Below, one piece after another: positions 25,314 to 52,495 of a DNA stretch of 64,000 bases. Position 1 is the stretch's first letter, and each line of letters opens with the position of its first letter. The DNA comes from an uncultured Pelagibacteraceae bacterium (GTDB lineage Bacteria; Pseudomonadota; Alphaproteobacteria; Pelagibacterales; Pelagibacteraceae): NCBI GenBank assembly GCA_902624885.1, contig CACNZU010000004.1:1-64000 (forward strand). The letters are read 5' to 3'. The position numbers and the translations under genes were made by a program. Under the pieces are notes generated by a model. The model searched no databases. It saw only the letters and a list, made by a program, of their open reading frames with translations, and had not been told where the DNA came from.

Positions 25314-25431
25314 AGCCTGGCAATGTCCTACTCTTCCATATCTTAAGACAAAGTACCATCGGCGCTGAAGGACTTAACTTCCGAGTTCGGAATGGGATCG
25401 GGTGTAGCCCCTTCGCAATAATCACCAGGCA
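25314..25431 (-). rRNA. rrf: 5S ribosomal RNA
   Basis: About 118 bases on the minus strand. Terminal helix GCCTGG (25430-25425) pairs with CCAGGC (25320-25315). Internal conserved segments include CACCCGATCCCATTCCGAAC and GAAGTTAAG, GCGCCGATGGTA. It is separated from tRNA-Val by about 60 bases. No 23S or 16S gene is in the window; the next 38 kb upstream of it is surface-glycan genes. Confidence 0.96.
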
Positions 25432-46518: not shown

Positions 46519-47655
46519 TTAATAAGTAAGTTTTTTAAACATTAGTTTATCATCGATTTTTGTATTTAAAATAATTTTTAGGATTTTTTCTGCAGAGTTA
46601 CCGTCCCCATATGGATTTTTAATATTTTTTATTCTTTTTTTAAACGATTTTGACTGACTTAATCTGAAGGCTTTTTTTAATTTTTGTAAAGTAATTTTTT
46701 TAACATCAATAATATTTTTAGCTCTTAGTCTTCCGAATTGTCTATTTCCAATATTTATACAAGGAGTTTTAAAGGTAGGGCTCTCTAATATTCCTGAACT
46801 AGAATTTCCAATAATGCAATTGGTATTTTTTAGTAGAGTGAGATATTCCTCTCTAGGCAAATTATCAAATAAATAATCCTCTGATTGCCTTTTTTGAAAA
46901 AATTCATTTTTTATAATTGAAGATCCTGCATCATTGTTAGGTGATATCCAAATTTTCTTCATTTTAATTTGTTTTAAAAATCCAAAAATTGAGTCTAAAT
47001 CCTCTTTAATAGACTCTATTCTAGCTTGAGGAGGATGATAAATAACCAAAACATAACTTGAATTAAAATTTATGTTGTACTTTTTACGTAATTTCGACAA
47101 TTTATTAAATTTATTATTTTTTAAGTCGTCTAATTGAGGCGCTCCGACTAACTTAATTCTAAATTTTTCCTCTCCTAGTTTTTTTAGACGAAGTGCAGCA
47201 TCTCTGTTTGAAGCAAAATGCAAGTTTGAAAATTTTCCTATAGCATGTCTAGCTTGGCCATCTATTATTCCAGATAATTCTCCAGCTTGTATATGAGCAA
47301 TAGGAACATCTGTGTATGCCCCAACTATTGAAGCGACGAGCGTCTCACCTCTATCACCTGCGAGAATTATCCAATCCGGATTAATTCTATTAACAGTGTC
47401 TACAAATGACGACATAAGAATACCCATAGATTTTGTAACTGTATGATTATTATATCCATCTAAAGCCATATAAATTTTGTCATCAACTTTAAAACCGTCT
47501 TTTTCAATTTCTTTTAGGGAAAATCCAAAATTATCTAGCAAATGCATATTAGTAGCGCAAAGATTAAATTTAATTCTCATTTTTTTACATTTCTCTAAGA
47601 TTGGTCTTAAATACCCCCACTCACCTCTAGAACCTGTAAAAAATAATAATTTCAT
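46519..47655 (-). CDS. neuC: UDP-N-acetylglucosamine 2-epimerase, hydrolysing (NeuC/LegG type)
   Basis: 378 residues. FFTGSRGEWGYLRPIL, AGDRGETLVASIVGAY, HIQAGELSGIIDGQARHAIGK, HPPQAR and GNSSSGILESP are the hydrolysing epimerase motifs. It converts UDP-GlcNAc to ManNAc, or the 2,4-diacetamido analogue to its manno form in the legionaminate route. No LegB-type retaining dehydratase is in the window, so either a sialic-type product or an external LegB is required. It follows neuB by 1 base. Confidence 0.92.
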   Translation of the reverse strand: MKLLFFTGSRGEWGYLRPILEKCKKMRIKFNLCATNMHLLDNFGFSLKEIEKDGFKVDDKIYMALDGYNNHTVTKSMGILMSSFVDTVNRINPDWIILAGDRGETLVASIVGAYTDVPIAHIQAGELSGIIDGQARHAIGKFSNLHFASNRDAALRLKKLGEEKFRIKLVGAPQLDDLKNNKFNKLSKLRKKYNINFNSSYVLVIYHPPQARIESIKEDLDSIFGFLKQIKMKKIWISPNNDAGSSIIKNEFFQKRQSEDYLFDNLPREEYLTLLKNTNCIIGNSSSGILESPTFKTPCINIGNRQFGRLRAKNIIDVKKITLQKLKKAFRLSQSKSFKKRIKNIKNPYGDGNSAEKILKIILNTKIDDKLMFKKLTY

Positions 47656-47656
47656 A

Positions 47657-48670
47657 TTAAAAACTTATTTGTGATCTTTTTATTAAAGTGTTTTTCTTGA
47701 TAAATTTTTTGGCTCTTTTACCTATAACTTTACTCATAAATCTTGAAGGAATTCCTGTCCCAGGTCTTTTTGACCATATATCATCTGCACTAATTTTTTG
47801 GTTTTTATGTATATCTCTCAAACTCACAATACTTCTAGTAGCCCACCTCCTAATCTGTTTTTCTTTTTTATAAATTCTTTTTTTAGTGCCTAAAGATTTT
47901 TCTAACTTCCTTATGCCTTTAACCATTTCTGCAAATTTTTTAAATGAAATAGATACATGCCTATCTGGACCATAATTCTTATTATCAAGATTAACGTGTT
48001 TCTCTATGATTCTTGCACCTAAAGCAACTGCTGCAAGAGAAGATAAAATATCATTTGTATGATCTGAATGGCCAATTTTTATATTTGGGTATTTTCCTCG
48101 TAAAATTGGAATGAATCCTAAGTTTAAATCTTCTAATATTGGAGGATATTCACTAGTACAATTCATCAACGCAATTTTTCTATTTTTTTGTTTACTAATA
48201 ACATTTTGGACCATTTGAATTTCTTTCACAGTCGACATGCCTGTTGAAAAAATTACAGGTTTTTTAAATTTTAAAATTTTTTTTATAAAAGGCGTATCAG
48301 TAAATTCACCTGAACCAATTTTAAACCATTTTACTCCAATGCTATTCAATTCTTCTGCAGCCTTATAACTAAATGGAGTGCAAAGATATTCTATACCTAT
48401 CTTTTGGCAGAAAATTTTTAGTTTTTTGTGATCACTTAATTTAAGAGAATATTTCTTCAAAAAATCGTATAACGACATTTTAAAATTGCTCGACTTAGGA
48501 ACACTTTTAAGCATTTCTTCATCTGGTAGGTGATGTTGAAACTTAATAACATCTGCTCCAGCTTTTTTTGCAAGTCTTACCATTTTTTTCGCGTAATTAA
48601 GATTTCCAAAATGATTATCGCATGCTTCTGCAATTATTATTACTCTTTCGTTAAAGAAAATTTTAGACAT
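47657..48670 (-). CDS. neuB: NeuB-family nonulosonate synthase (sialic/legionaminic type)
   Basis: 337 residues. IIAEACDNHFGNLNYAKKM, DVIKFQHHLPDEEML, FKIGSGEFTDTPFI, STGMSTVKEIQ, GHSDHTNDI and IIEKHVNL trace the PEP-condensing TIM barrel; the C-terminal RPGTGIPSRFMSKVIGKRAK is the antifreeze-like SAF domain. It joins a mannosamine to phosphoenolpyruvate to make a nine-carbon acid. A second NeuB-family gene at 61097 resembles PseI, so two nonulosonates are probably made. Confidence 0.93.
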   Translation of the reverse strand: MSKIFFNERVIIIAEACDNHFGNLNYAKKMVRLAKKAGADVIKFQHHLPDEEMLKSVPKSSNFKMSLYDFLKKYSLKLSDHKKLKIFCQKIGIEYLCTPFSYKAAEELNSIGVKWFKIGSGEFTDTPFIKKILKFKKPVIFSTGMSTVKEIQMVQNVISKQKNRKIALMNCTSEYPPILEDLNLGFIPILRGKYPNIKIGHSDHTNDILSSLAAVALGARIIEKHVNLDNKNYGPDRHVSISFKKFAEMVKGIRKLEKSLGTKKRIYKKEKQIRRWATRSIVSLRDIHKNQKISADDIWSKRPGTGIPSRFMSKVIGKRAKKFIKKNTLIKRSQISF

Positions 48671-48677
48671 GTTATAT

Positions 48678-50405
48678 TTATATTAATGACTTTAGTTCTC
48701 GATAATTTGTCTCTTTAAATAAATTATTTTGTAAAAGAAATATATTGTCAGAATATTTGCAATGATCAATTTCATGCGTAACGTTAATTATAGTCATTTT
48801 TTTTGATATTTCTTTAAAATATTTGTTGATTATTTCAGAAGATCTTAAATCAATTGAACTCAGAGCTTCATCTAAAATTAATATATTTGGTTTTTTTGCT
48901 AATGCTCTGGCTAGTGCAATTTTTTGTCTTTGACCTCCAGACAGGTTAAGTCCTCTTTCTCCTACATTGGTCTCTAATCCGAGAGCAGAACTTTTGATAA
49001 AACTGTCAAGATCTAGCTTATTTAAAATCTCTAATATTTCACTATCTGATAATTGTGGATTTGCCCATTTAATATTATTCTTGATACTAGTGTTAAAAAG
49101 AAGAGGATCTTGCGGAACTAAACCAACTTTATCTCTTAACGTTTTTATATTAATTTCCTCTAGAGAATCTTTGTCATAATAAATTTTGCCAGAGACCGGT
49201 GATTGAAGTCCAAGTATTAAATCGATAATTGTTGATTTACCAGTGCCAGTCTTTCCAACAAAAGATGTGATCTTATTTTTTTTTATTTTGATATTACAGT
49301 CCTCTATTAGAACATTCCCATTAGGGTATTTAAAACTTACACTTTCCAATCTTATTTCGTCGTGAAAAGAATTAAATTTCTTACCTTTTTCAGACTCTTT
49401 ATTAATATTACTTTTAGTTATAACATCGTCGATTTGTTTAAAGCTTGGATAAAAATTACTTGTTAACACAATATTGTTTAAAATTGTAGAAACTAAAGGT
49501 ATAGCCCCATACATTCCCCAAAAGATTCCCACGAATTCAGGTATTTTAGAAATTGAGAAGCTTCCACCAAAAAAAATTAATATAACTACAATCGCTGCAG
49601 GTTTAAAGGTAAAAGGGATAACATATGAAAGCATTACTGCTTTTAATTCTAAATTTTCAAGAGCTTTAATTAATTTTAAATTATTTTTTTTTGTGGGGTC
49701 TGATAAATTGAATCCTAAAATTAATTTTATTGCATTGTACGTCTCACTTAATTTATCAATTGTATTATTCGCTTGCTCTGTTCTTTTTTGCCCAACCTTT
49801 TTAGCATAATTGCTCAAATACAAAAAAGGAATACCAATTAAAATAAAAGTAATTATAACTTGTAAAGTAAATTTAGTATTTATTAAAAAAGGTATATATA
49901 AATAAATGAATAGCTTAAAAATATTAGAAAAAATTTGAGCTGTGGCTCTTGTAGCACTACCCACATATTGAATTTCTTTAGTGAATATATTTAAAATTAG
50001 ACCCTGTTTAAGAGAATCTAAATGGCTCCACTTGGAATATAAAATTGATTTCAAAAGATCATCTGATAACGATACTTTTAGATCCATTACAATCCTATAA
50101 ATTTGAAATAATATTAACGCAGAAAATAAAGAGGTAAAAACAACAGTACTCACAAGAAGAATTGAAAAATTTAAATAATTCAAATCTAAGTCTAAAGAAT
50201 AAAAGATTGATACGATAAATTCTGTAAATTTGTTAACATTTTTTAATTCAGGATCTACTATAAAGTCAGCAAAAGGAACAATAGCTGCAAAAGAAGTCAT
50301 AACAAAAATTGACTCTACAATTACTAGAAAAATTAAAAAAATAAATTTTTTAGGATTTCTCTCAATATTCTTTTTAAGAAAAAAAATTAATGAATTTAGA
50401 AACAT
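48678..50405 (-). CDS. ABC exporter, fused membrane and ATPase domains (MsbA type)
   Basis: 575 residues. About six transmembrane helices lie in the first ~300 residues; the C-terminal ATPase has Walker A GKTGTGKST, LVPQDPLLFNTS (Q-loop), signature LSGGQRQ and Walker B ILILDEALSS. It resembles lipid A or lipid-linked oligosaccharide exporters (PglK/MsbA). It is the first structural gene after the regulatory pair and the only obvious export protein in the cluster; no Wzx flippase or Wzy polymerase is seen in the window. Confidence 0.93.
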   Translation of the reverse strand: MFLNSLIFFLKKNIERNPKKFIFLIFLVIVESIFVMTSFAAIVPFADFIVDPELKNVNKFTEFIVSIFYSLDLDLNYLNFSILLVSTVVFTSLFSALILFQIYRIVMDLKVSLSDDLLKSILYSKWSHLDSLKQGLILNIFTKEIQYVGSATRATAQIFSNIFKLFIYLYIPFLINTKFTLQVIITFILIGIPFLYLSNYAKKVGQKRTEQANNTIDKLSETYNAIKLILGFNLSDPTKKNNLKLIKALENLELKAVMLSYVIPFTFKPAAIVVILIFFGGSFSISKIPEFVGIFWGMYGAIPLVSTILNNIVLTSNFYPSFKQIDDVITKSNINKESEKGKKFNSFHDEIRLESVSFKYPNGNVLIEDCNIKIKKNKITSFVGKTGTGKSTIIDLILGLQSPVSGKIYYDKDSLEEINIKTLRDKVGLVPQDPLLFNTSIKNNIKWANPQLSDSEILEILNKLDLDSFIKSSALGLETNVGERGLNLSGGQRQKIALARALAKKPNILILDEALSSIDLRSSEIINKYFKEISKKMTIINVTHEIDHCKYSDNIFLLQNNLFKETNYRELKSLI

Positions 50406-50976: not shown

Positions 50977-51276
50977 TTAGCCTTCGACTTCCCTCTTTAA
51001 TTCGTCATATTCTCTCATTTTTCTTTTCATAAAATTAATTGTTAATTGGGTCTTTTTAGAAATTCCTTTTGGAGTAAGAACGTAAAAATAATTAATTTTA
51101 TTTGGATTTTTTTTAAAGTTATCAATCTTCACTAAGCCTTTATCTTTTAAGGCTTTTAAGCAATAATTTAGCTTTCCTAAGCTAAAACCCAAATTTTTAG
51201 CCATCTGTCTCTGTGAGAGCTTAGGCTTATTTTTTATTGCTCTCATTAAATTTAATAAATCTTGACTGTCTTTCAT
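50977..51276 (-). CDS. EPS-associated MarR-type transcriptional regulator
   Basis: 99 residues, a small winged helix: LLNLMRAIKNKPKLSQRQMAKNLGFSLGKLNYCLKALKDKGLVKI in short pieces, then YFYVLTPKG. This matches the short MarR-like regulators found at the head of exopolysaccharide operons (TIGR04176-like). The start codon is 2 bases from a perfect TGTTCA-N5-TGAACA palindrome, and a second copy lies inside the promoter spacer, so autoregulation is likely. It is the first gene of the long leftward unit. Confidence 0.85.
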   Translation of the reverse strand: MKDSQDLLNLMRAIKNKPKLSQRQMAKNLGFSLGKLNYCLKALKDKGLVKIDNFKKNPNKINYFYVLTPKGISKKTQLTINFMKRKMREYDELKREVEG

Positions 51277-51279
51277 AAT

Positions 51280-51296
51280 TGTTCAATAATTGAACA
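51280..51296. promoter_or_regulatory. Operator 1 (TGTTCA-N5-TGAACA)
   Basis: TGTTCA (51280-51285), ATAAT, TGAACA (51291-51296). With flanks it extends to a 21-base near-perfect palindrome (51278-51298). It lies between the -10 box and the ATG of the MarR-type gene, where a bound dimer would block transcription start. Confidence 0.75.
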
Positions 51297-51297
51297 A

Positions 51298-51326
51298 TAT
51301 TTAATGTTCATTTATTGAACAGTCAA
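51298..51326 (-). promoter_or_regulatory. Promoter of the leftward surface operon
   Basis: On the minus strand TTGACT (51326-51321) and TAAATA (51303-51298) are separated by exactly 17 bases. The predicted start point is near 51291, leaving a leader of about 15 bases. Operator 2 fills the spacer and operator 1 covers the start point. Confidence 0.65.
51305..51321. promoter_or_regulatory. Operator 2 (TGTTCA-N5-TGAACA)
   Basis: TGTTCA (51305-51310), TTTAT, TGAACA (51316-51321). Same half-sites and same 5-base spacing as operator 1, centre-to-centre distance 25 bases. It sits between the -35 and -10 boxes of the leftward promoter and about 23 bases before the start codon of the divergent pseC gene. 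Confidence 0.75.
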
Positions 51327-51343: not shown

Positions 51344-52495
51344 ATGAAAAAAATTAGTTACAACAAGCAATTTATCGACTCAAACGATGTCAAAATAGTG
51401 GCTAGATCACTTAAAAATGATTTCATCACAAGCGGTAAAGAAGTTGAGAACTTTGAAAAAAAAATAAGTAAATATTTAAATGTTAAGTATTCAGTAAGCT
51501 GTATAAATGGAACTGCTGGTTTAGACCTTGCGTTTAAAGGTATAAAATTAAAAAAAAATGATGTGATTGTAATGCCAGTAATTAATTTTATAGCTTCTTA
51601 TAGTATGGCTGAAAATTTAGGAGCTAAAATTTTTTTAACTGATGTTGATCCCCTTACAGGCCAAATGACACCAAATCATTTAGAAAAATGTATTAAAGAA
51701 AATAATTTAAAAAATATTAAGGCTGTAGTTACAATGTATCTTGGAGGTTACCCAGAAAATGTTAAAGAATTTTATAAGTTGAAGAAAAAATATAATTTTT
51801 ATTTGATAGAGGATGCTTGTCATGCATTTGGTGCAAGTTATAAAGTTAACAATAAAATATACAAAATTGGTTCTTGCAAACATGCAGACATAAGTGTTTT
51901 TTCTTTTCATCCTGTTAAAACAATTACGACTGCAGAAGGTGGAGCTGTTACTACAAATATAGGAAATATAAATAGAAAGCTAAGGTTAATTAAAAATCAT
52001 AATATTTTAAGAAAGAAAAATTACTGGGAATATGACATTAAAGAATTATCTGGTAATTATAGATTAAGTGATATCAATTGTGCGCTTGGAATTAGTCAAT
52101 TGGCTAAAATAGAGAGATTTATCAAAGCGAGAAGAAAAGCATATCAATATTATAAAAAAAAAATTTCAAGTTACTCCAAGTCTATTTCTACTCCAAATTA
52201 TAAAACAGTAAACTATTCAAGTTTTCATTTATTCTTAATTAAATTAAATTTTAAAAGACTTGGCAGTAATAAAAATAAATTTTTTAAATATATGAATAAA
52301 AATAATATCTTTCCTCAGTTTCATTATAAACCAATTAATACTTTTTCATTTTATAAAAAGAGAAAAAAAAATTTTCTTGGTGCGAGACAATACTATACAG
52401 AGTGCCTATCTTTACCGCTCTTTTATGGTATTAAAAAGAGCCAACAAGATTTTGTTTTAAAAAAAATATTAAAGTTTATTCAAAAAAAAAAATAA
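51344..52495 (+). CDS. pseC: PseC-type aminotransferase (UDP-4-amino-4,6-dideoxy-AltNAc)
   Basis: 383 residues, DegT family. MKKISYNKQFIDSNDVKIVARSL and ITSGKEVENFEKKISKYL open as in PseC; SCINGTAGLDLAFKGI, PVINFIASYSMAENLGAKI, IEDACHAFGASY and FSFHPVKTITTAEGGAV with the PLP Lys follow; SGNYRLSDINCALG and the C-terminal FHYKPIN are also typical. It aminates the PseB product at C4. It is the first gene of the rightward unit and shares the regulatory gap with the MarR-type gene. Confidence 0.92.
   Translation: MKKISYNKQFIDSNDVKIVARSLKNDFITSGKEVENFEKKISKYLNVKYSVSCINGTAGLDLAFKGIKLKKNDVIVMPVINFIASYSMAENLGAKIFLTDVDPLTGQMTPNHLEKCIKENNLKNIKAVVTMYLGGYPENVKEFYKLKKKYNFYLIEDACHAFGASYKVNNKIYKIGSCKHADISVFSFHPVKTITTAEGGAVTTNIGNINRKLRLIKNHNILRKKNYWEYDIKELSGNYRLSDINCALGISQLAKIERFIKARRKAYQYYKKKISSYSKSISTPNYKTVNYSSFHLFLIKLNFKRLGSNKNKFFKYMNKNNIFPQFHYKPINTFSFYKKRKKNFLGARQYYTECLSLPLFYGIKKSQQDFVLKKILKFIQKKK

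Follow-up and report, generated by a model that had tools for sequence, protein, structure and literature searches.

The twin palindromes in front of the MarR-type regulator gene in this 64,000-nucleotide stretch of Pelagibacteraceae DNA (the window) are very probably the operators of that regulator, MarR_EPS, which, as far as the sequence can tell, would repress its own promoter and with it a surface-glycan operon that includes a gene for an elongation factor (Table 1). The left palindrome, TGTTCAATAATTGAACA at 51280–51296, reads TGTTCA-ATAAT-TGAACA and the right one, TGTTCATTTATTGAACA at 51305–51321, TGTTCA-TTTAT-TGAACA, with perfect six-base arms in both. A preliminary description of this DNA had placed TGTTCA-N5-TGAACA here twice, 25 nt apart from start to start, and both copies are indeed found. 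It also called them identical, which is true of the arms but not of the 5-nt centres (ATAAT vs TTTAT), and it put the regulator gene two bases away, whereas the start codon of marR, at 51276 on the minus strand, actually lies three bases from the nearer palindrome. Exactly two copies of the core GTTCA-N5-TGAAC are present in the 817-kb assembly, both in this intergenic region; the expectation from base composition is about 0.05 sites per 64 kb, or 0.7 per assembly. A chance origin is ruled out by these genome-wide counts together with the conservation of the sites in relatives.

Table 1. Features of the MarR_EPS locus in the window, with the basis of each assignment
Feature	Position	Strand	Basis or remark
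Operator 2	51280–51296		covers expected marR transcript start, centre near +4; sequence, conserved in relatives
Operator 1	51305–51321		fills −35/−10 spacer of marR promoter; sequence, relatives' promoters
−35 hexamer TTGACT, putative marR promoter	51321–51326	−	sequence; TT[TG]AC[ACT] here in 79/110 promoters
−10 hexamer TAAATA, putative marR promoter	51298–51303	−	sequence; between the operators, TA-rich element there in relatives
MarR_EPS transcriptional regulator, 99 aa	50977–51276	−	TIGR04176 profile; MarR fold
NusG/RfaH-like transcription elongation factor, 166 aa	50473–50973	−	3 bases after marR; AlphaFold model matches
ABC exporter, putative marR operon	48678–50405	−	surface-glycan gene downstream of marR
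NeuB-like synthase, putative marR operon	47657–48670	−	surface-glycan gene downstream of marR
NeuC epimerase, putative marR operon	46519–47655	−	surface-glycan gene downstream of marR
Divergent PseC/DegT-type aminotransferase, first gene of nonulosonate-type unit	51344–52495	+	TIGR03588 and PF01041 scores; possible second target
Candidate promoter of divergent unit, TTGACT-17-AATAAT	51262–51290	+	consensus scan only; −10 inside operator 2

The regulator matches the TIGR04176 (MarR_EPS) profile at 133.1 bits (cut-off 88) over residues 7–98 of 99; among Pfam families, HTH_24 passes with 38.3 and MarR_2 reaches 21.2 bits, under its gathering score of 27. Its AlphaFold model (pLDDT 87.6) consists of a winged helix and then one long C-terminal helix, and the best Foldseek matches are MarR proteins, for example HcaR, MepR and SlyA (E 1e-4). 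Those three are autoregulated repressors in which, as here, a winged-helix fold goes together with palindromic operators over the protein's own promoter, and an autoregulated MarR repressor is a mechanism of a known kind. The protein differs from a typical MarR protein in size, 99 residues against about 140, and in the single long helix that follows the wing. Other members of TIGR04176 share with the window gene both the polysaccharide-gene setting and the operator core, and the recognition helix, S-L-G-K-x-N-Y-C-L, is the best-conserved protein segment between the Pelagibacter and the distant proteins. One family (L070–L080) carries MarR_EPS-like domains, scoring near the TIGR04176 cut-off, in open reading frames of about 690–705 codons, which are possible fusions. 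A contig labelled Candidatus Woesearchaeota (L119) bears a Pelagibacter-type MarR_EPS locus with its operator and is probably misbinned. No close relatives were found in the viral contigs searched.

The link between site and regulator is tight within the genus. In a first set, comprising the same-genus loci whose upstream DNA was readable, each of the 46 MarR_EPS loci carries at least one exact core in the 160 nt ahead of the gene, and 28 of them carry two. Among 80 named Pelagibacter loci a site is found within 160 nt upstream of MarR_EPS in 77, with two or more in 59; these loci span 485 kb and hold 148 exact cores, of which 137 fall in that 160-nt zone. The three exceptions support the rule: the upstream zone of one (L108) is masked sequence, and in the other two (L102 and L106) a same-strand gene lies 1 nt before MarR and the operator pair, with spacings of 24 and 23 nt, stands 1.4 kb upstream, where it apparently marks the promoter of the operon. 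The two sets overlap partly; pooled, they give 113 distinct promoters, 75 with at least two sites and 35 with one, and as the loci are related by descent these counts are not independent. At the level of whole genomes, the 12-base motif occurs in 39 of 47 same-genus genomes that have MarR_EPS against 1 of 14 that lack it (Fisher p ~4e-7), some of the absences stemming from incomplete assemblies.

Conservation extends well beyond Pelagibacter. Of 46 distant TIGR04176 loci (other families and classes; GC 0.40–0.71; roughly 40–53% protein identity), 36 show the exact core in the 250 nt ahead of the gene, and in several of the other ten it lies slightly further upstream. When all 5-base dyads with spacers of 0–12 were scanned in these loci, GTTCA-N5-TGAAC came first with 36. 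The next in rank (10, 8 and 7) were the same dyad in a shifted or overlapping register, the top score of an unrelated dyad was 5, and the maximum for any dyad in random windows of the same loci was 3. In a search of 37 genomes, six had newly read upstream DNA (G685, G724, G640, G626, G623 and G594), and in five of these a site lies no more than about 300 nt from the gene; YGTTCA-N5-TGAACR is present in 33 of the 37, in one to three copies each, with a total of 49 vs 15 for the reversed control. Two operators, one in the spacer and one at +1, are the usual Pelagibacter arrangement. A lone operator is almost universal among distant members; its centre mostly falls near +1 to +11 relative to the best promoter match, and a few families have it in the promoter spacer instead. 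Pelagibacter combines both of the operator positions known from distant loci. In some distant loci (L058, L059 and L068) the MarR start codon lies inside the operator, as in GTTCATATGATGAACGC, so that there the operator dictates how the gene begins, down to its first codons.

The geometry of the sites suggests what they do. As the preliminary description had proposed, the right copy fills the 17-base spacer between TTGACT and TAAATA on the minus strand and the left copy spans the expected start near 51291, the promoter elements being consensus matches. The arrangement recurs: of 110 Pelagibacter promoters, 79 have a TT[TG]AC[ACT] hexamer directly next to the first operator's GTTCA, a TA-rich −10-like element sits between paired operators, and in most of these relatives the two sites cover the −35/−10 spacer and the start point. 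Start-to-start distances of operator pairs are 22–24 in 60 of 75 Pelagibacter promoters and 25 in the window. Since 25 nt is not an integral number of helical turns, pairing on the same face of the helix is the poorer explanation, and the spacing is better explained if it is set by fitting operator 1 between the −35 and −10 elements and placing operator 2 over the start point.

We therefore favour a scheme in which a MarR_EPS homodimer would occupy each GTTCA-N5-TGAAC and so block the promoter spacer at one operator and the start point at its twin, such that the regulator would repress its own gene; the palindromic form of the sites would fit a dimer. The marR promoter would also drive the NusG/RfaH-like factor and then the ABC-exporter, neuB and neuC genes, and that factor would allow RNA polymerase to traverse the whole of this long operon. 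As the elongation factor would be driven from the same promoter, repression would hold back both initiation and the read-through factor. In this scheme we infer binding, the dimer, repression, an inducing signal and antitermination. The repression layout, and the assignment of the sites to the neighbouring MarR-type protein, had been put forward in the preliminary description together with half-site conservation as a check; half-sites are kept in 77/80 Pelagibacter and 36/46 distant loci that have the regulator, and this linkage, with the spacer and start-point geometry, supports both proposals.

Repression is the sign of regulation that the position of the sites would predict. It is unlikely that MarR_EPS is instead an activator or a dual regulator at the twin sites: repression is deduced from position alone, and action from a site in the spacer has precedent, as some regulators, those of the MerR family, work in this way, but here the sites overlap both the spacer and the start point, the spacer has a normal 16–17 nt, and in most distant loci the single site is centred near +1 to +11, where activators seldom act. 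Quite unlikely, too, is the idea that the sites mainly control the divergent pseC-like operon, with autoregulation secondary. The units on the two sides both consist of nonulosonate or surface genes, the operators are 23–64 nt from the pseC-like start, a promoter-like match for that unit on the plus strand has its −10 inside operator 2, and other genomes have such sites ahead of neuB or cytidylyltransferase genes without a MarR gene alongside. However, the sites hold their position relative to MarR across relatives while the upstream neighbour varies—in the 80 relatives it is divergent in 26, in the same direction in 35, the 23S rRNA in 16 and undetermined in 3—and the −35 box joined to operator 1 is oriented towards MarR.

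Two further explanations concern the agent that would use the palindromes. The alphaproteobacterial LexA box is a direct repeat, GTTC-N7-GTTC, which the half-site GTTC and the 7-base gap resemble; the twin sites are nevertheless inverted repeats, GTTC-N7-GAAC, and the LexA box was rejected as a match. With the motif almost confined to genomes that have MarR_EPS (1 of 14 without it) and no other copy in the window genome, it is highly improbable that LexA or some other regulator uses the sites. The least probable explanation, to which we give almost no credence, has the palindromes acting as RNA, in an attenuator or terminator. Six-base arms and a five-base loop could fold into short hairpins, but operator 1 is upstream of the expected start, the sequence scan found no terminator-like site, and the recurrent dyads include no unrelated one with a 5-base spacer. 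The arm letters are, moreover, fixed from GC 40% to 71% with no compensatory change, and an RNA hairpin was rejected on that ground.

Further sites suggest that MarR_EPS reaches beyond its own gene. In Pelagibacter genomes 17 occurrences of the 12-base motif away from MarR were read, and every one falls between genes or at a start codon; they mostly adjoin genes for NeuB/NeuC, cytidylyltransferase, PEP mutase, sugar epimerase, radical SAM proteins or ABC exporters, and many are on the same contig as MarR, 4–16 kb away. One of them (L093) shows the complete pair of operators together with a −35 box of its own. No extra site beyond the twin operators was found in the window genome (817-kb assembly). 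It is probable, judging from the placing of this same site before other surface-glycan operons, that MarR_EPS has a small regulon within the surface island. Operator-like sites also stand ahead of PEP mutase genes in L094 (1598–2899) and L096 (213–1523), which suggests that phosphonate-type surface decoration shares the regulon.

The gene behind marR encodes a 166-residue protein with no Pfam match, and Pfam and PDB sequence searches with it were almost empty; PF02357 matches weakly in 3 of 12 relatives. Its AlphaFold model (pLDDT 87) returned NusG and RfaH from Foldseek (E 1e-7 to 1e-4, probability 1.0), and we call it NusG-like because of this structure search alone. A homologue directly follows marR in 31/46 and 50/78 Pelagibacter loci, and in about a third of loci the factor is missing right after MarR. 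Specialised NusG paralogues such as UpxY, TaA and LoaP are encoded in the operons that they activate (PMC7593976; PMC7819879), and an association of RfaH cluster CL4 with an HTH regulator has been reported (PMC7593976). As with these paralogues (RfaH clusters, UpxY, LoaP, TaA), the gene of the 166-residue protein lies close to the start of a surface-glycan operon; it differs from theirs in that the MarR_EPS gene and its putative operators stand ahead of it.

The surroundings of MarR_EPS are rich in surface-glycan genes, encoding the ABC exporter, NeuB, NeuC, PseC-like and PseG-like proteins; the PseC-like protein scores 368 bits with TIGR03588, below the cut-off of 423.5, and 277 bits with PF01041. 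Named relatives place the genome of the window in Pelagibacter (SAR11). The window also contains a 5S rRNA gene at 25315–25429 on the minus strand. In HTCC1062 the hypervariable region HVR2 was placed between the 23S and 5S rRNA genes (PMC2217521), and the 5S rRNA gene and the surface-gene content of the window fit an HVR2-like island. The MarR module lies directly behind the 23S rRNA end in 16 of the 80 relatives (L104, L110, L111, L125, L126, L132 and L135 among them).

In conclusion, no published operator for TIGR04176 was found in the literature searched, and within that literature the operator, its twin form in SAR11 and the likely regulon appear to be new. A large and little-studied family of regulators gains a concrete putative DNA target with which proteobacterial genomes can be screened to predict surface-glycan regulons, and the presence of the same dyad before relatives across the Proteobacteria suggests that cell-surface sugar genes are under a common switch. 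We tentatively consider, as a possibility that is on balance doubtful, that MarR_EPS and the NusG-like factor form a two-level switch, acting through a single operator sequence shared across the Proteobacteria on initiation at several surface-glycan promoters and on the gene for the elongation factor that these need, and that this is the main switch of the SAR11 surface island. If so, the outer glycans of SAR11 cells, which are likely phage receptors, would be turned on and off together. For these abundant ocean bacteria with streamlined genomes, the twin operators offer a candidate switch for a hypervariable surface island, and whether and when SAR11 cells change their surface becomes testable.
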